This document shows positions 1 through 9,480 of a stretch of 64,000 nt of DNA, piece by piece. The notes below the pieces were generated by a model that saw nothing but the letters and a program-made list of their open reading frames with translations, was not told the origin of the DNA and did not search any database. The translations under genes were made by a program, and so were the position numbers. Where the stretch lies: assembly GCF_039536205.1 (NCBI RefSeq), contig NZ_BAAAYL010000003.1, positions 115,522 through 179,521 on the forward strand. The letters run 5' to 3'. Position 1 is the first letter of the stretch. The number at the start of each line of letters is the position of its first letter. The stretch comes from Streptomyces sannanensis. GTDB taxonomy: Bacteria > Actinomycetota > Actinomycetes > Streptomycetales > Streptomycetaceae.

Positions 1-1006
1 TGCTGGCCACGATGCCGGCGATGCGCCCCGGTCCCCACGACGTGGCGACGGCCTCGTTGACCGGCACGGCTGCGGTGACGAAGTTCAGGACGAAGGCGTC
101 GCGGAGCAGCAGGTAGGGCTGCAGGAGCCGGTCGAAGTCCGCTGGGAGGGGCCGGACGCGGGTGTAGCCGGTCAGGTACGCGTGGGCGAAGTGTTCGTAG
201 GCGCCTGGTTCCTTGCGGGCGATTCGGTGGACGGATCCGAGCACGGTGGCGATGTCGAGGAGGAAGTGGCCGGTGCCGCAGTCGTCGAAGTCGATGATGC
301 CGATGGTCGTGCTGTCGGGCATCGAGATCATGTTTTCGCGGTGGAGGTCGCCGTGGATGCGGCCGCGGTCAGCGGGTCCGCCTTCCTGGAGGGCCGGTGT
401 GATGCGTTCGGCGACCGTGCGCAGGGCCTCAAGGCCTGCGGGACCCAGCTGCTGGTGGGCGGTCGGGTCATTCATCGCGTGGCCTTTGAGCAAGATGGTC
501 TCGGCGTCCCAGACGGGCCGGTCGAAGTCGCTGAGTTCCACCGTGGCCACGTTCTGGTGAAGGTGGGCGGTCGCGGTGCCCATCTGCTCGGCCACGCCGG
601 GCTGGCGGTAGGGGGGCTCTGCCGTTCCTGGCACCCAGTGCAGCAGTGCCAGGGTGCAGGGCTCGTCGTGGCCGGGGACGTCGACCGGGACCACGTAGCA
701 GCCGTCAGTGGTCGTGACGGGGCCGGGGACCGGGACAGCGCGGGACTCGGCGAGGCTCTCCAGCCATCGCATTTCGCTGCGCTGCTGGTGGGCGGGGCGG
801 CCCTCGCGCACGGACACGCGGGCGACGAACGAGGCGCGGCCGGGCGGGGTGACACGCCAGACGGCGTTGTCCTCATACTGCTGCACCTGCATCTGCACAG
901 CCTGGCCGTCGAGCCCGTAGTGCTCCGACAAGGTGGTCCGCGTCAGTTGCTCAAGAAGTTCGAGCTGTGCGGTGTGGGAGAGGCTGGTGAACGACAAAGG
1001 GGTCAC
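1..1006 (-). CDS. APH-fold phosphotransferase, C-terminus cut by window edge
   Basis: Small-molecule kinase of the aminoglycoside phosphotransferase fold. Read on the minus strand it shows the Brenner motif HGDLHRENM near residue 217, followed by IGIIDFDDCG, the metal-binding Asp region. The likely start is GTG at 1006. The frame is open to the window edge, giving about 335 codons with the 3' end missing. The substrate cannot be read from sequence; homoserine/choline-kinase-like and antibiotic kinases all share these motifs. It is divergent from the broken gene at 1.1-2.0 kb. A second kinase of this fold lies at 3.2-4.1 kb, so the two may belong to one functional neighbourhood. Confidence 0.85.
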   Translation of the reverse strand, partial: MTPLSFTSLSHTAQLELLEQLTRTTLSEHYGLDGQAVQMQVQQYEDNAVWRVTPPGRASFVARVSVREGRPAHQQRSEMRWLESLAESRAVPVPGPVTTTDGCYVVPVDVPGHDEPCTLALLHWVPGTAEPPYRQPGVAEQMGTATAHLHQNVATVELSDFDRPVWDAETILLKGHAMNDPTAHQQLGPAGLEALRTVAERITPALQEGGPADRGRIHGDLHRENMISMPDSTTIGIIDFDDCGTGHFLLDIATVLGSVHRIARKEPGAYEHFAHAYLTGYTRVRPLPADFDRLLQPYLLLRDAFVLNFVTAAVPVNEAVATSWGPGRIAGIVAS

Positions 1007-2175: not shown

Positions 2176-3282
2176 TCAGCGGGTCAGGTTCGCGAGGAAG
2201 GACTCGGCTGCCGACCAGGGGGTTAGCTCGATGCCGAAGCCGCTGTGTGCATTGGGTCCTTGGATGTGGACCAACCGGCCGGACAGGTAGACGACGTCGC
2301 CGGTGCGGAACGCCCCGGTGTACGCGCCGAGGTAGCTGCGAAGGTGGGTGATCCGGCGGGCGAACACGGACGGCTCGTCGACCGTGGACTCGGTGACGGT
2401 GTCCACCTCGATCCCGTAGAGCGCCGGCGTGACCAGGCCCTCGGAGTGATCCGTTATCCGGGCAAGGACGGAGATCGCCCCTACCTCTTTGGCGACCACC
2501 CCGGCGAACGTCTTGTCGCCGTCGGCCCTCAGCGGCTCACAGTTGATATGCGCCCCCGCACCGGCTGTGAGGCCCTGCAGTTTGCGGGCCTCCTGGCGCA
2601 TTAGCGCGTCGAAGCTTCCCCCCACCATGTACTTGGCGCGCCGCACGTACAGCCGGGTGAGGGTTTCGCCCTCGTAGGGGTGGATGAGGGCGCGTTCGGC
2701 GAACAGTGCTTGCGCCGCCTCGTAGCCGCGCAGCCCGTAGCAGACCAGATCGATGTCGGAGCGGGCATTGCAGGCACCGACCAGGAAGGACCCGGTCACG
2801 CCGATGACGTCCGCAGCGCCGGCCGCGACGATCCAGTTGATGATGGCGAGCAGGTCCTCGCTGACCGCCGTCTGGTCCAGGAGGCCGGGGGCCTGGTGCA
2901 GTGCGGCGAGGGTCTGGCGGCAGGAGTAGTGGGTGACGATGTCCTCGCGGGGCACGCCAGTGATGACGCACCCCACGGCGGGGGAGTAGAGGTAGCACTC
3001 GGGCCGGTCGGCGAGGATCCCGAACGCTTTGGACACGACGCTGTTCTGCCGGTACGTCCGGCCGAACAGCACCCGGTCGCCGCGGGCGTCCGGGTAGTAC
3101 TTGACGTACCCCAGGAAGTGCGTGCCGGGATGGACATCGCCGATGACTTTGAAGATCACCCCGGCGCGATCCAGGAGGTAGTCGCGGTCACGGATGGTCG
3201 CCAGCGCGGTGCCCAGCGGCGAACTCTTCGAGGCCGGGGAAGAGGGCGGTATCGACCGTCCCGGTGCGCTCATACTGCTCAA
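2176..3282 (-). CDS. nucleotidyltransferase-fold protein
   Basis: Predicted nucleotidyltransferase that would transfer NMP from NTP to an unknown acceptor. The polymerase-beta-type motif VTGSFLVGACNARSDIDLV lies at about residues 162-180, with the GS pair and two metal-binding Asp residues (D176, D178) present. The N-terminal part (RDRDYLLDRAGVIFKVIG, 31-48) resembles archaeal predicted nucleotidyltransferases of the COG1665 type, as I recall them. The longest frame overlaps the upstream kinase gene by 95 nt. Because the conserved RDRDYL segment begins inside that overlap, a real overlap is likely, but the exact start is uncertain. It is the last gene of a four-gene cassette and is followed by the 2.1-kb terminator. 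Confidence 0.8.
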   Translation of the reverse strand: MSSMSAPGRSIPPSSPASKSSPLGTALATIRDRDYLLDRAGVIFKVIGDVHPGTHFLGYVKYYPDARGDRVLFGRTYRQNSVVSKAFGILADRPECYLYSPAVGCVITGVPREDIVTHYSCRQTLAALHQAPGLLDQTAVSEDLLAIINWIVAAGAADVIGVTGSFLVGACNARSDIDLVCYGLRGYEAAQALFAERALIHPYEGETLTRLYVRRAKYMVGGSFDALMRQEARKLQGLTAGAGAHINCEPLRADGDKTFAGVVAKEVGAISVLARITDHSEGLVTPALYGIEVDTVTESTVDEPSVFARRITHLRSYLGAYTGAFRTGDVVYLSGRLVHIQGPNAHSGFGIELTPWSAAESFLANLTR

Positions 3283-4129
3283 GTCCCTTCGTGAAGAGAT
3301 GACGGCGGTACTGCCACTTCAGGTGCTTGTCCGTACGGGAGGGATCGGTGGGCCGCATCAGGGCCAGGAAGAACAGGGCCTTGACGAGCAGGTAGGCGCC
3401 CAGGTTCTGGCTGACCGGCTGTCCGGCTGCGTTCAGGCTCGCTTCGTCCAGCGCAGCGAGGTAGCGGCGCCGCTGGCCGGAGCTGGCGGTGTAACCCTTG
3501 CTGCCGCCCTTGAAGGCGATGATTTCCAGGGCCGGAAGGACGTCGTATCCCAGTGGCACCAAGCCGTGGTGCTGCCAGTCGATGACCCCGGCCGCCAGGA
3601 CGTTGGGCAGGCCGTAGTCGAGGTGGCCCGCCACCAGCGGAACCGCGCCAAGGCGGTCCAGCGCGTGATCAAGCGCAGCGTGCGTGCGGGTGTTGTCCAG
3701 GTCCGGGTTCTCCTGGAAGACGTTCTGAGTGAACCCGGCGCTGTCGAGCCATTGCCGCAGCGTGCCGGGCGTGGGCTGGACAAGGTGGCCGGCCTGGGCG
3801 CGCAGCAGCCGGGCGGCGACCTGCGCGGCGGTGTCGGCGACGTCGTCGGGCAGGTCGCGACCGCCGTCCAGTGACGCCACCGCCCGGTCGTGCAGGGTCT
3901 GGTCGCCCAGCGACTCCTCCACGACGTAGTAGCGGCCGTCGTCGCTGACGCCCTCCTCCAGGACGTGCGGGACCGGGTAGTTAAGGTCCGCGATCCGGCG
4001 CTGAAATTCGGTCTCCGCTTGAAGCTCGGCTCCGCCGGTGCGCCGGTAGCGCGTTCCGTCGGCGGAGACGTACACCGCGCCGTCGGCGGCGGTCCGCTTC
4101 TTGACGAACCGCCAGTTGTTCTCGTTCAT
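3188..4129 (-). CDS. APH-fold small-molecule kinase
   Basis: 313 residues, phosphotransferase of the protein-kinase/APH fold. The catalytic loop is HLDYGLPN (169-176) and the metal-binding segment is GVIDWQHH (181-188), followed by a conserved GYD. The N-terminal VYVSADGTRYRRTGG region looks like the nucleotide-binding hairpin. Its ATG overlaps the stop of the upstream tRNA-ligase-like gene at 4129, so the two are translationally coupled. The substrate is unknown. Because it is sandwiched between a nucleotidyltransferase and a tRNA-ligase-like protein, a role in a shared small-molecule or tRNA-linked pathway is inferred. Confidence 0.85.
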   Translation of the reverse strand: MNENNWRFVKKRTAADGAVYVSADGTRYRRTGGAELQAETEFQRRIADLNYPVPHVLEEGVSDDGRYYVVEESLGDQTLHDRAVASLDGGRDLPDDVADTAAQVAARLLRAQAGHLVQPTPGTLRQWLDSAGFTQNVFQENPDLDNTRTHAALDHALDRLGAVPLVAGHLDYGLPNVLAAGVIDWQHHGLVPLGYDVLPALEIIAFKGGSKGYTASSGQRRRYLAALDEASLNAAGQPVSQNLGAYLLVKALFFLALMRPTDPSRTDKHLKWQYRRHLFTKGLEQYERTGTVDTALFPGLEEFAAGHRAGDHP

Positions 4130-5280
4130 CAGCTCGCTCCTTCCGGCCCCTCTGCGAAGCCGTGGGTGACCCCGTAGTCGGGAATGGCCCGGGACAGGGT
4201 CCGGACGTCCATGACCCAGCGCATATCACCCGCCGCGACGCGACGCCGCAGTTCGGCGAGGACGTCACTCCCGGGTGTGTCCGGCCGCGCCAGGTGGGCG
4301 CGGCGCCAGAATTTCAGCAGGCCCGGGAGCTGTGCCGCAGTGATGCCCGCCCGGAGGTGCAGTGAGCACAGGGGCAGGAACCAGGCGAGGAACAGCTCTC
4401 GTAGCGCCGGGCTGACGCGGTGCACCTCGCACAGCCGCTGCAGCGCCGCGGTGTCGTCGTACGGGATGCGCCCGTGCAGCGCGTACCGCAGCCGCGTTCC
4501 GTTGTGCCGCCGGAACAGGGCCCCGTAGGCGGCGACGTTCGCCGCGGCGTTCTCGGTGACCGTCATCACCGGCTGCACAGCGCTGTACCGGGCGGCTGCA
4601 GCCAGCACGGTGACGTGCAGGCCGGCCCGGGGGTCCAGGACCAGGCCGTCGAGCCCGAGCGGCGCGAGGCTGATGCCGTGGTCGCGGGTGCGGGAGAGGA
4701 TCAGCCGCTCCGGGACGTTCTGGGCGATGGTCAGCAGATGTCCTGGTGGCCGGGCCCGGTGGGCGTGGAAGTCGTCACGTGCGAGCACTGGTGTGCCCGG
4801 TGGCCGGTCCCAGACCAGCAGTCGCCGGGTGTGTGGCCGGGAGCCCTGGTGTCCGCACGCCCGGCAGGCGTGGGGGACGGCGCCGGTCATGTGACCGCAG
4901 CGGGAGCAGAGGTGGACTGTGGTGGGAGTGACCGTCAGGGCGCCTTCTATCAGGAGGCGTTCGGTCATCTCCAGCGCGAGGGCGGCCACGACGGGCGTGG
5001 TGTCGGTGAGAACCCCGCCGACCGGGGCCGCGCCCGGCGCGTACTTGCCGGCGATCGCGCGTTCCTCCCGCTCCTGCCGGGCAACGGTTTCCTGGTCGGG
5101 GGCGTCACGGTGGCACAGGTCTCCGGCCAGCGTGACGGTGTTCCACAGATGCGGGGCTGGCCCGGTGCCAAGGAGGGTGTTGAGTGCTTCGGCCGCGCGG
5201 ATACCGGCCGCCTTGCCCGGCTTGTCAGCGATGGTGAAGGGGCCGTTCTGTACGGGCCCGTTGATGTACAGGATGTTCAT
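4129..5280 (-). CDS. degenerate class I tRNA-ligase-like (MetRS-like) protein
   Basis: 383 residues. A central zinc knuckle (C125/C128 and C139/C142: CSRCGHM, CRACGH) and the segment NVPERLILSRTRDHGISLAP (188-207) resemble the zinc domain and the 'TRDxxWGxPVP' region of methionyl-tRNA synthetases. I see no HIGH motif in the N-terminus (MNILYINGPVQNGPF) and no KMSKS. It is therefore unlikely to be a normal synthetase; aminoacyl transfer to another acceptor, or a regulatory role, is possible. ATG at 5280, 13 nt after the upstream phosphatase gene. The family call is by motif memory and needs a profile search. Confidence 0.65.
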   Translation of the reverse strand: MNILYINGPVQNGPFTIADKPGKAAGIRAAEALNTLLGTGPAPHLWNTVTLAGDLCHRDAPDQETVARQEREERAIAGKYAPGAAPVGGVLTDTTPVVAALALEMTERLLIEGALTVTPTTVHLCSRCGHMTGAVPHACRACGHQGSRPHTRRLLVWDRPPGTPVLARDDFHAHRARPPGHLLTIAQNVPERLILSRTRDHGISLAPLGLDGLVLDPRAGLHVTVLAAAARYSAVQPVMTVTENAAANVAAYGALFRRHNGTRLRYALHGRIPYDDTAALQRLCEVHRVSPALRELFLAWFLPLCSLHLRAGITAAQLPGLLKFWRRAHLARPDTPGSDVLAELRRRVAAGDMRWVMDVRTLSRAIPDYGVTHGFAEGPEGAS

Positions 5281-5293
5281 GGCCGCGGCCTCC

Positions 5294-5953
5294 TCAGCAG
5301 TCCGGTTGGACGGTGCCGCGGGCGTGGAACAGGCCGTCGGCCTGTTCGTAGACCAGGACGGCGGCGTTGGGTGTCTTGCGCATACGGGCCTCGTCGACCA
5401 GTTCGGTCACCGGTCGGCGCTCCAGGACCGCGCGCAGCGCGAGGATCGCGGTGTGGTGCGTGAACGCCACGACATCCGGCGCGGACGCGGTATGCAGTCC
5501 GTCGACGAACGCTGTGGCCCGCCGCAGGACGCCGCAGGCGAGGGACTCCCCGCCGACGCCGGGGGGCGTCCACAGGTGCTTGCGGGTCTGCCGGTCCTCC
5601 GTCCCCTCGGGGTAGGTGGCGTACAGCTCTTGTTTGGTCATGTAGGTGGCTGCGCCGTAGTGCTGCTCGTTGAGGAGCGCGGTCACCTCGTAGGGCAGGC
5701 CGGGCAGAGCAAGCGCGGCGGTGTCGAGGGCGCGGCGGTACTGCGAGGTGCGGATCGCCGGGTCGGGTCCGGTCAGGTCCCGCAGCGTCTGCCGCAGCCA
5801 CAGGCACTGGAGGAAGCCACGGGGCGTCAGGCCGACAACGTCCCGGGACAGGGCATGCGCGGCCGGCCCGGTCCACGGACGGGGGTTCTCGTAGAAGCCG
5901 GTGTATTTGGTGGCGTTCTCGATGGATTCGGCGTGGCGAACGAGGAAGAGCAT
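5294..5953 (-). CDS. histidine phosphatase (phosphoglycerate-mutase-like) family protein
   Basis: The N-terminal MLFLVRHAES is the RHG/RHE catalytic signature, whose His is transiently phosphorylated. A second conserved His lies in VVAFTHHTAI near the C-terminus. About 219 residues, a normal length for the family. Two in-frame ATGs lie at 5959 and 5953; AGGGG at 5960-5964 is spaced correctly only for the second, which is chosen. As the first gene of the cassette it could hydrolyse a phosphorylated intermediate made by the neighbouring kinase or nucleotidyltransferase (inference). Confidence 0.85.
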   Translation of the reverse strand: MLFLVRHAESIENATKYTGFYENPRPWTGPAAHALSRDVVGLTPRGFLQCLWLRQTLRDLTGPDPAIRTSQYRRALDTAALALPGLPYEVTALLNEQHYGAATYMTKQELYATYPEGTEDRQTRKHLWTPPGVGGESLACGVLRRATAFVDGLHTASAPDVVAFTHHTAILALRAVLERRPVTELVDEARMRKTPNAAVLVYEQADGLFHARGTVQPDC

Positions 5954-6215: not shown

Positions 6216-6682
6216 CAGGCGTCACCACCGTTCACACGCTCGTGGATGTCGATGAGGGTGGCGATGGCGTCGGGATTGTCCGCCAGGCCGACCCACTGCC
6301 CGAGCGCGGTGAAGACGGGCACGGCGTCCGTGTCGGCGTCGAACACCACGACGTAGTCGCCGTACCTGTCGAGGACCATCTCCCGCAGCGCCCTCGCCGG
6401 TGCGGTCGCCAGGACTTCCAGGGCGTCGACCGCGAGCCTGGGCTCCGTCAGGGTGCCGGGCGAGATGAGGAATCCCGTCACGTGCAGTAGGTCGCCGGGC
6501 TGTATCTCGGTGAGCAGCGCGTCCGCGATCCGGGGATCGTCGGTCGTGCAGGAGACCACCGTGTCGTCCGAGGGGTCGTCGGTGGGGGAGGAGATCAGCT
6601 CGAACCGGGCGGTTCCCGGGCTGGTGCCGGGGGCGGGGATGGCGGAGAGGAAGCCGTCGACCGTGAAGGGCTTGGCGTACAT
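6215..6682 (-). CDS. hypothetical protein, possible OB-fold
   Basis: 155 residues. The N-terminal half alternates beta-like segments (PFTVDGFLSAI, ARFELISS, TVVSCTT, GDLLHVTGFLI), with the spacing of an OB-fold such as those in single-strand DNA-binding or primosomal proteins. The C-terminal half is acidic and helical. The start is ATG 6682, which overlaps the stop of the Lsr2-like gene. A DNA-binding role in plasmid transfer is only an inference; no family signature is certain. Confidence 0.65.
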   Translation of the reverse strand: MYAKPFTVDGFLSAIPAPGTSPGTARFELISSPTDDPSDDTVVSCTTDDPRIADALLTEIQPGDLLHVTGFLISPGTLTEPRLAVDALEVLATAPARALREMVLDRYGDYVVVFDADTDAVPVFTALGQWVGLADNPDAIATLIDIHERVNGGDA

Positions 6683-7494
6683 CAGCTCGCCTCCGCCAGG
6701 GTGGTGGTGTGGGCGGTCTCGTAGGCGTCCAGGACGGCCTTGGCCGGGTTGCCCCGGTCGGCGACCTGGTAGCCGTTGGCGCGCCCCCACGTCCGGATCG
6801 CGTCCAGCTCCTCCTTGCTGCGCTGGATACCGGTCGGCGCGGGAGCTGCGGCGGCCCCGGTGGTACGGCTGCCAGCCTTCACCGCGCGCAGGTCCTCCTG
6901 CGCCTGCTCCAGCTCCGCCTTGAGCTTGGCGACGCGCTGTTCGGCCTCGTGCTGGGCGTCGTCGGCCTCGCGCCGTGCGGTCAGCTCGGACAGGTCGCCG
7001 CGGATGCGGGCGGCCCGGTTGCGGATGCTGGCGGCCGGGTGGTCCTTCGCCCAGGAGAGCAGGCCCTCGATCCCGTCACTGTCCACCGGACTGTCGGTCG
7101 CGGGACCAGCCGCCTGGAGGGCGCTGGCCTCGGAGTCCGGGGTGCGGGTGTGCTGGAGGGCTTCGGTCAGTTCGCCCTCCGACAGTCCGAGGGTCTTGCG
7201 GACGTGGTCGGGGCTGTCGCCGTTGGCGAGCATGGAGGCGGCGGTGGCGGTGAAGGCGTTGACGGGCATCGTGTCTCCGGGGTTCGGGGGGCCGGGGGTG
7301 GTGAGGTGGGGAAGCAGGGTGACGAGGTCGTCCTCGCCGCAGGGCAGTCCGAGGGCGTCAAGCAGGTCGGCGAGGTCGTCCTTGTCGCGGGCGTGGTGGG
7401 CGACCACCAGGGAGGCGGCGGTGTTCTGGTCGCTGCCGAGCGGGGTGAGTTCGAGGGCCTCGGCTTCGAGGGCCTCTTTCATGTCGGTGAACAC
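6682..7494 (-). CDS. Lsr2-like protein with coiled coil
   Basis: About 270 residues. The C-terminal segment IRTWGRANGYQVADRGNPAK matches the DNA-binding helix pair of Lsr2, a nucleoid-associated silencer of AT-rich DNA in actinobacteria. The usual RGR minor-groove hook reads RGN here, which may weaken or alter binding. A heptad-like stretch (VAKLKAELEQAQEDLRAVK) precedes it, and the N-terminal 100 residues are acidic and unlike the Lsr2 dimerisation domain. GTG at 7494 is preceded by GGAGAG. Likely a plasmid-borne architectural or silencing factor. Confidence 0.8.
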   Translation of the reverse strand: MFTDMKEALEAEALELTPLGSDQNTAASLVVAHHARDKDDLADLLDALGLPCGEDDLVTLLPHLTTPGPPNPGDTMPVNAFTATAASMLANGDSPDHVRKTLGLSEGELTEALQHTRTPDSEASALQAAGPATDSPVDSDGIEGLLSWAKDHPAASIRNRAARIRGDLSELTARREADDAQHEAEQRVAKLKAELEQAQEDLRAVKAGSRTTGAAAAPAPTGIQRSKEELDAIRTWGRANGYQVADRGNPAKAVLDAYETAHTTTLAEAS

Positions 7495-7505
7495 GACCGG
7501 CTCTC

Positions 7506-7691
7506 CTACGCGGCGGTGGTGCGGGATTTGCGCTGCGCGAGGTCCAACAGCTCGCGGTTGCGCTCCTGCTGGGCGGGCGTGAGCGGCCGGGCCTTCGCGC
7601 CGTGGCGGTGCCACAACGGATGAGCGGGCGGCTCGGGATAGGCGAGGGCGTGGTCGACGTCGCGGTTGGTGCTGCTCAAGGGGGCCTCCAT
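7506..7691 (-). CDS. small hypothetical protein, about 61 aa
   Basis: The frame beginning at ATG 7691 encodes a basic C-terminal helix (LTPAQQERNRELLDLAQRKS) and a Pro/His-rich middle. It ends 11 nt before the Lsr2-like gene. No good Shine-Dalgarno precedes the ATG, and the frame is open further upstream, so the start is uncertain. No family recognised. Confidence 0.5.
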   Translation of the reverse strand: MEAPLSSTNRDVDHALAYPEPPAHPLWHRHGAKARPLTPAQQERNRELLDLAQRKSRTTAA

Positions 7692-7974: not shown

Positions 7975-8412
7975 CGGCCGGGAGTCGGTCAGCTGCTGGA
8001 GCACCTGCGCCACCAGGTCCGGCGACGGTTTCCAGGACTCGACCTGCCCGCGTGCGGGGACGGGCAGGGGGAGCTCCTGGACGTCGGCGAGCACCAGGTG
8101 CCACGCGCCCGGCTGCGCCCATTCCGTACAGGGCCGGGAGCCTTCGGGGTCCTTGTGGCAGTCGGTGATCCGGGCGATGCCGACCACCGCGCCGCGCGTC
8201 AGCTCGCCGCCGCGGATCGTGCGGCCGATCAGCGGGATGCGCAGGGCGCGTTGGTCGATGGTCTTGCTCGCGTGCAGCAGCACCCAGCCCGGCCACCACC
8301 GGGTGGGCCGGTTCTCAACCGTCTTGGCACCGGCGAGGATGCAACCTGCGTACGGCTGCCTGATGCTGATGCCGCGGATCCAGTCGTCCTCGGGCAAGGT
8401 GGCAGGGCTCAT
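7972..8412 (-). CDS. ASCH-domain protein
   Basis: 146 residues. The segment GISIRQPYAGCILAGAKTVE (about 14-33), followed by ENRP and GWVLLHASK, is the hallmark of the ASCH fold. ASCH proteins belong to the PUA-like superfamily and bind RNA or modified bases. Start ATG 8412, which overlaps the stop of the upstream GGDEF gene. In a plasmid such a protein could act on tRNA/mRNA or recognise modified nucleic acid; which of these is not shown by sequence. Confidence 0.85.
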   Translation of the reverse strand: MSPATLPEDDWIRGISIRQPYAGCILAGAKTVENRPTRWWPGWVLLHASKTIDQRALRIPLIGRTIRGGELTRGAVVGIARITDCHKDPEGSRPCTEWAQPGAWHLVLADVQELPLPVPARGQVESWKPSPDLVAQVLQQLTDSRP

Positions 8413-9086
8413 GCGGCTCGCCCCCACACGGCGGTGCCCGGTCGGCCAGCGCGGCGGCCGTTGATGGACGGCACCGTGGCGTGCTTCCTGGTGGCGAGGT
8501 GCGCGCGGCTGAAGTGCTTGCCGTCGTATAGGGCGGCGTCGGCGGCCCGCTGCAACGCGGACAGGTCGCGGCTGCCGATCACGTCCGGGGTCGCAGCGCC
8601 GACCGAGGCGGCGACGTCGACAGTGCGGCCGTCGTCCAGGACGACCGACGTGTGCAGCATCCTCACCAGCGTCGCGAGGCGGACCTCGCGGCAGTCGCGG
8701 GACATCGGCAGCACGACAGCGAACTCGTCACCGCCCAACCGGCCGACGGACGCGTTACGGCCTGCCCAGGCGGTCAGCCGGGTGCCGTACGCGGCGAGGA
8801 CGGCGTCCCCAGCCGGGTGCCCGAGCGTGTCGTTGACGTCCTTGAAGTGGTCGGCGTCAACCAGGACCACGCACACGTCGTCGCCGTGGCGGGCCAGGAC
8901 CTGCCGGGCCCGGGCGGTGTAGGCGTCGCGGCGCAGCAGCCCGGTGAGCGGGTCCTTCTTCGCGGCGGCCAGGCGCCGGTGCAGGGCGATGGCGTGAACG
9001 GTCCAGCCGGTCAGCGGAACGGCGGCGGCGGTCAGTAAGAGTGCACGCTGCCCGAACCGGGCCTGTGTGTGCAGGACTGAGCCCAT
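8409..9086 (-). CDS. membrane-anchored diguanylate cyclase (GGDEF)
   Basis: 225 residues. One hydrophobic segment at about 15-33 is followed directly by a complete GGDEF domain: DPLTGLLRRDAY (45-56), DADHFKDVNDTLGHPAGD (77-94) and the catalytic RLGGDEF (116-122), ending with ADAALYDGK. It should make cyclic di-GMP from two GTP. No RxxD inhibitory site is seen just before GGDEF, so product inhibition may be absent. In Streptomyces c-di-GMP controls development through BldD, so a plasmid-borne cyclase could alter host differentiation (inference). Confidence 0.88.
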   Translation of the reverse strand: MGSVLHTQARFGQRALLLTAAAVPLTGWTVHAIALHRRLAAAKKDPLTGLLRRDAYTARARQVLARHGDDVCVVLVDADHFKDVNDTLGHPAGDAVLAAYGTRLTAWAGRNASVGRLGGDEFAVVLPMSRDCREVRLATLVRMLHTSVVLDDGRTVDVAASVGAATPDVIGSRDLSALQRAADAALYDGKHFSRAHLATRKHATVPSINGRRAGRPGTAVWGRAA

Positions 9087-9177
9087 AATGAGGATCTCCC
9101 TCTCGTCTCGTACGGGTTGGGATGGGCCCGGGGCAGCCGACGAAGCCGGCAAGCAGAGCGGCTGTCCCGGGGCGGAG

Positions 9178-9480
9178 CTACAGCGCGAAGTCGCTGCGGC
9201 TGGTCCAGCTGACGGGGTTGTGCCAGAGGCCGGCCTTCGCGGCGGGCCACTCCATCTGCCAGCCGGGCCGAAGCCCGCGCGCTCCCCAGCTGTCCGGCTG
9301 CTTGCCGGGGATCTCAAGTCCGGCCGTGTGCGCGGCGAGCGCGGCGTCGTACACCTCGTGTGCGCGCCGCAGGGCCGCGGTGGGGGAGTCGGCCTCGCCG
9401 GTGAAGACGTGCACGCCGCGCCGGTCGGGGTGGGCGGTGTCGTGTATGGGGACGTCGACCTCGTAGGTGCGCAGGTTCAT
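9178..9480 (-). CDS. hypothetical protein, 100 aa
   Basis: ATG at 9480. It begins with a beta strand (MNLRTYEVDVPIHDTAHP) and has a central helix AALRRAHEVYDAALAAH. The C-terminus is Trp-rich (WGARGLRPGWQMEWPAAK). It is a single gene between the GGDEF gene and a hairpin. I do not recognise the family. Confidence 0.65.
   Translation of the reverse strand: MNLRTYEVDVPIHDTAHPDRRGVHVFTGEADSPTAALRRAHEVYDAALAAHTAGLEIPGKQPDSWGARGLRPGWQMEWPAAKAGLWHNPVSWTSRSDFAL

Follow-up and report, generated by a model that had tools for sequence, protein, structure and literature searches.

A four-gene Streptomyces cassette with a methionyl-tRNA synthetase-fold protein that lacks HIGH and KMSKS: a putative small-conjugate pathway

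The closest described systems are proteins with the fold of an aminoacyl-tRNA synthetase (aaRS) that act in biosynthesis. According to a review (PMC12945691), AcmF of the ascamycin pathway is a truncated AlaRS-like protein, without most of the ATP-binding residues, that acylates a nucleoside sulfamate with Ala-tRNA, and SbzA of the SB-203208 pathway is an IleRS-like aminoacyl-tRNA-dependent transferase that retains HYGH and AMSKA. Cyclodipeptide synthases, which resemble TyrRS and TrpRS, are also aaRS-like and aminoacyl-tRNA-dependent (PMC7566563), whereas hydrazine synthetases, whose partners are a cupin and an N-hydroxylase, use ATP to adenylate an amino acid (PMC11705231). Here we describe four genes, A to D, in a 64-kb stretch of Streptomyces sannanensis DNA (hereafter the window), which is part of contig C3 (179.5 kb) in a genome of 7.8 Mb. 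One of them encodes a protein with the fold of methionyl-tRNA synthetase (MetRS). The cassette looks like an undescribed small-molecule pathway of some Streptomyces and related bacteria, the best reading being a putative synthesis or modification of a small conjugate.

Gene C (4129..5280, minus strand) encodes a basic protein of 383 residues, whose predicted structure (predicted local distance difference test, pLDDT, 88.5) matches MetRS both by Foldseek and by VIA; the fold is shared along residues 1–371, at an identity of 8–12%. The MetRS likeness that the original prediction proposed is shown by this modelled fold, and C does not match an unrelated one. When 25 C homologues were scanned, the 19 Pfam families that they reached at E ≤ 1 included neither tRNA-synt_1g (PF09334) nor any other synthetase family; the HMMER filters drop most matches above E 0.1 in such a scan. 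The zinc knuckle, C125/C128/C139/C142, is invariant, and R197-T198-R199-x-x-G202 is present in 55/55 sequences; in a low-probability profile alignment (hhalign only 23%) the knuckle and the SRTRDHG stretch pair with the MetRS knuckle and TRDLDWG. The HIGH stretch, of the form NGDLHLGH, is replaced by NGPVQNGxF (placed by motif reading), with Q11 in 55/55, and no KMSKS loop is found among the conserved positions, helices coming after the strand 265–269. At the methionine pocket, judged by eye only, VLDPR seems to stand in place of the VWxDA stretch, the alignment being the same low-probability one. The pattern first read from the letters, a kept zinc knuckle and TRDxG region with HIGH and KMSKS gone, stands.

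What replaces the ATP-activation motifs is a different, strongly basic set of invariant residues. Positions conserved in at least 96% of sequences include N7, Q11, K23, R28, H44, W46, N47, T48, D54, R56, H57, R68, E72, K79, Y80, D93, R197, T198, R199, D216, R218, H222, H269, K323, and W355, and the median isoelectric point (pI) of 144 C homologues is 9.67 vs 5.16 for 26 MetRS and MetRS-like sequences (pI values of 12 paralogue frames, taken from uncut open frames, were not used). All four genes have a ratio of nonsynonymous to synonymous substitution rates (dN/dS) below 0.67 in 80/80 comparisons; against the eight nearest loci it is 0.31–0.46 for C and 0.08–0.14 for A. The comparisons drew on the 21 loci in which all four genes are free of stops and covered to at least 78%; L054, L064, and L014 had been set aside in advance, the A of L027 was lost to a stop, and L013 and L056 are near-identical. 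Because C has lost HIGH and KMSKS, has gained an invariant set of its own and has a high pI, its sequence argues that it is an enzyme with a changed reaction, not a decaying gene.

Other likenesses of C were also followed. A resemblance to aIF2-gamma in a PDB sequence search (residues ~115–236, E 0.003–0.008) is gone even at E ≤ 10 with the 55-row alignment and was rejected; ribosomal-protein matches cover the zinc part. The JGI annotation “ribosomal protein L40E” on the C homologues P0002, P0008, and P0083 apparently stems from the zinc knuckle alone. Twelve frames of MetRS-like paralogues, all from this bacterial order, were compared for these motifs: eight (L099, L102–L107, and L109, several in long open frames) read NGDLH(L/V)GH and bear KFSTS, two (L110 and L111) have HIGH with no KMSKS-like match, and two (L108 and L112) show no usable motif; the eight may be hydrazine-synthetase-like.

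In A, B, and D, the catalytic motifs of the nucleotidyltransferase, kinase, and phosphatase families named in the original prediction are intact. Gene A (2176..3282, minus strand, 368 residues as called) encodes a nucleotidyltransferase with a β-rich N-terminal part (~28–135), a nucleotidyltransferase core (~137–255), and a C-terminal OB fold (~267–368), the last driving most of its fold matches. Its GS...DxD motif is that of the pol-β nucleotidyltransferases, with G164, S165, D176, D178, and D254 invariant in 43/43 sequences, and although A alone reaches only E 0.095 against Pfam NTP_transf_2, 26 of 28 homologues match this family at E ≤ 0.1 (best 1.2e-5). COG1665, to which the original prediction likened A, is a tentative label. 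Minimal nucleotidyltransferases such as ANT(2'')-Ia differ from A, which has in addition its β-rich N-terminal part and its C-terminal OB fold. Gene B (3188..4129, minus strand, 313 residues) is an APH-type kinase (Pfam APH, E 7e-8, above the cut-off) in which H169-x-D171-Y-G-L-P-N176 and I183-D184-W185 are invariant in 21/21 loci. Gene D (5294..5953, minus strand, 219 residues) belongs to branch 1 of the histidine phosphatases (Pfam His_Phos_1, E 6.4e-22, above the cut-off), with R6-H7-x-E9 and the second histidine, H166, invariant in the same 21/21 loci.

The four genes form one unit, and their association is more than chance. Open reading frame calls reproduce the layout of the original prediction: transcription on the minus strand in the order D, C, B, A, with a 13-nt gap between D and C, a stop/start overlap of C and B at 4129, and a 95-nt overlap of B and A. 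Residues 1–27 of A, inside this last overlap, have pLDDT < 50, and what precedes the RDRDYL stretch is not conserved in the wider homologues; A may therefore begin further in, which would make the overlap smaller. Surveys of A and of C each drew 392 Streptomyces genomes (the same genome handles as far as listed), with full-length C in 8 and A in 9, all 8 within the 9 (hypergeometric p 7e-16, genomes being taken as independent and relatedness ignored). C is split at the same locus in the ninth (G224), and G090 has an extra, incomplete A elsewhere, without C. At the class level A matches in 11/394 genomes; the four (near) full-length copies all have an adjoining C, and the remaining seven matches are partial or weak. 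Full-length homologues are therefore not scattered singly. The counts exclude a C-like match in G219 (L069), which lies on the antisense strand of an unrelated gene, as well as fragments of C in G348, G778, G794, G902, and G951, fragments of A in G157, G175, G289, and G370, and matches to A that were partial or low in G459, G475, G486, G503, G575, G605, and G657; the homologues listed were the best 120 of 272, 231, and 278.

With L006 and L064 counted as a single contig, 27 loci hold a near full-length C; A adjoins it in 26, B in 26, and D in 25. L030 has lost A, its truncated B being followed by an insertion sequence; B is split in L011, L062 begins at a contig end, D is partial in L005, and neither L061 nor L062 showed a D. 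Gene order differs between lineages, from D-C-B-A to divergent D-C and B-A pairs (L012, L026, L058), B-A-D-C (L057, L060), and C-B-A (L061). That linkage survives such reshuffling is strong evidence of joint function. Among PLSDB plasmids, 22 records carry C and 24 carry A, all from Streptomyces, and the ten that we opened are all linear. The cassette is sporadic and often plasmid-borne, and its remnants (fragments, frameshifts, and insertions) are frequent, which is the pattern of a dispensable trait.

We favor, at somewhat less than even confidence, a mobile, co-inherited pathway for a specialized small molecule, an antibiotic-like metabolite or a signal, most likely nucleotide- or phosphosugar-like. 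In such a pathway, B would phosphorylate and A would nucleotidylate a small acceptor. C would acylate that acceptor without using ATP, most likely with the amino acid of an aminoacyl-tRNA, as AcmF, SbzA, and the cyclodipeptide synthases do, and D would remove a phosphate that protects or activates. Certain lineages add one or two S-adenosylmethionine (SAM) methyltransferases, which might tailor the product, and a GntR/UTRA regulator, which might sense a small ligand. Being small and portable, and without an obvious backbone enzyme, such a pathway may be overlooked by ordinary cluster-finding; as the unit is only ~3.8 kb, the question is within reach at the bench by expressing the four genes.

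Accessory genes accompany the cassette in part of its range. A GntR regulator with a UTRA ligand domain occurs in 8 of 33 cassette loci (L009, L012, L013, L026, L056, L058, L065, L066) and SAM methyltransferases in 9 (L008, L012, L013, where it is broken, L026, L029, L056, where it is partial, L058, L065, L068); the window cassette has neither, and no further family recurs in more than 7/30 loci. In L009, L013, L056, L065, and L066 the regulator gene is divergent from D. For the methyltransferases, the best-scoring families are general ones (Methyltransf_25). One methyltransferase also passes the cut-offs of FtsJ (27.2 vs 24.1 bits) and UbiE, so an RNA substrate is conceivable for it.

A second APH-type gene in the window (2–1006; Pfam APH, E 6.7e-27; homoserine-kinase-like in NCBIfam, below cut-offs) had been suggested as a further member, at 1–1006. 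It has no tblastn match (E ≤ 1e-5) in any other cassette locus, and we rejected it as a fifth gene; this membership, as a part of the original interpretation, is not supported, while the four-gene unit, the families of A, B, and D, and a MetRS-fold C without HIGH and KMSKS stood. The gene has the cassette on one side and, on the other, just left of the window, a degraded A-like piece (G000:C3:114915-115256; 42% identity to the A C-terminus, with a stop) that adjoins parA/parB, and the two are perhaps the remains of a second, more distant kinase–nucleotidyltransferase pair. A distant relative of A in another actinomycete (L071; 31% over 160 residues) neighbors adenosine-deaminase-like, cytidylate-kinase-like, and Ham1 NTP pyrophosphatase genes, and another distant A-like gene (L039:139-2996) has adenosine-deaminase-like and Ham1 neighbors. 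These neighbors favor small nucleotide-like substrates for this type of nucleotidyltransferase, and the two gene sets look like another undescribed nucleotide pathway; L071:6940-12746 also holds flavoprotein genes and an XRE-type regulator. A GGDEF (diguanylate cyclase) gene lies upstream of the window cassette, at 8409–9317; on the related plasmids L010, L030, and L031, annotation likewise places GGDEF genes upstream. The window also encodes, at 6682–7614, a protein that ends in an Lsr2 DNA-binding domain (Pfam E 6.2e-9).

The loss of HIGH and KMSKS could also mean that C has given up tRNA chemistry and that its Rossmann pocket serves for a nucleotide intermediate supplied by A, which could be the donor instead. 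C would then condense or isomerize a nucleotidylated substrate, and the small-molecule pathway would be of a similar kind but independent of tRNA. The Lys/Arg/His-rich set (K23, R28, R56, R68, K79, R197, R199, R218, K323) would fit a phosphate-rich ligand, A belongs to the same gene set, and its distant relative sits among nucleotide enzymes. Yet the MetRS architecture of residues 1–371 is kept, C-terminal helices included, beyond what a nucleotide pocket should need, and the high pI is in our judgement more easily explained by nucleic acid; we consider this account unlikely on balance, if worth taking seriously.

That same basic, MetRS-like character would suit a device that modifies, repairs, or senses tRNA, for instance in stress or phage defense, where C would bind tRNA, B and D would add and remove phosphate, and A would add a nucleotide. 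Support for tRNA modification or repair, the alternative in the original prediction, is indirect. The OB fold at the end of A is common in nucleic-acid-binding proteins, one accessory methyltransferase passes the FtsJ cut-off, and the sporadic, often plasmid-borne distribution would be in keeping. However, A–D have no PADLOC-DB match at E ≤ 0.1, C is absent from phage records, and C and A are absent from viral contigs in a pattern scan, so we rejected a defense island or a phage origin; the regulators, with their UTRA domains, are of a kind that senses small ligands, the methyltransferases best match general families, and further families recur in at most 7/30 loci. We regard a tRNA device as distinctly improbable. 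Still less probable, in our view, is detoxification or antibiotic self-resistance, in which B and A would act like APH and ANT resistance enzymes and C would bind an inhibitor of MetRS as a decoy of that enzyme.

Returning to the specialized small-molecule pathway, C can be placed against three kinds of described protein. With class I MetRS it shares the fold and the zinc knuckle, and it differs in lacking HIGH and KMSKS, in its length (383 residues vs 464–606 in the matched chains), and in being strongly basic. Hydrazine synthetases (PyrN and relatives) have a MetRS-like domain and belong to actinomycete specialized metabolism, and the C-terminal domain of PyrN is the fold match at rank 12 for C, but C is without the ATP motifs and has a kinase, a nucleotidyltransferase, and a phosphatase as partners instead. 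No cupin or N-hydroxylase was found near the cassette among the window and accessory proteins scanned, most neighbors lying outside that scan. Among the literature matches listed we found no paper on the cassette, several queries having required all terms in one paper; “MetRS” and “methionyl” occur 0 times in the review PMC12945691, and no MetRS-like case appears in it. By behavior, AcmF, SbzA, and the cyclodipeptide synthases would be the nearest precedents. AcmF and the cyclodipeptide synthases are like C in combining an aaRS-like catalytic fold with lost ATP-activation motifs, which SbzA retains; none of the three is MetRS-like, unlike C, for which tRNA use is only proposed. Tentatively, and as a proposal that we think somewhat unlikely in its full form, C may be the first aminoacyl-tRNA-dependent transferase that derives from MetRS and works without ATP. 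It would form the core of an undescribed mobile pathway of actinomycetes, coupled to a nucleotidyltransferase, a kinase, and a phosphatase, whose product, a metabolite or a signal, would be nucleotide-like and aminoacylated. If this is true, MetRS would become one of the few synthetases known to have been recruited into biosynthesis as users of aminoacyl-tRNA.
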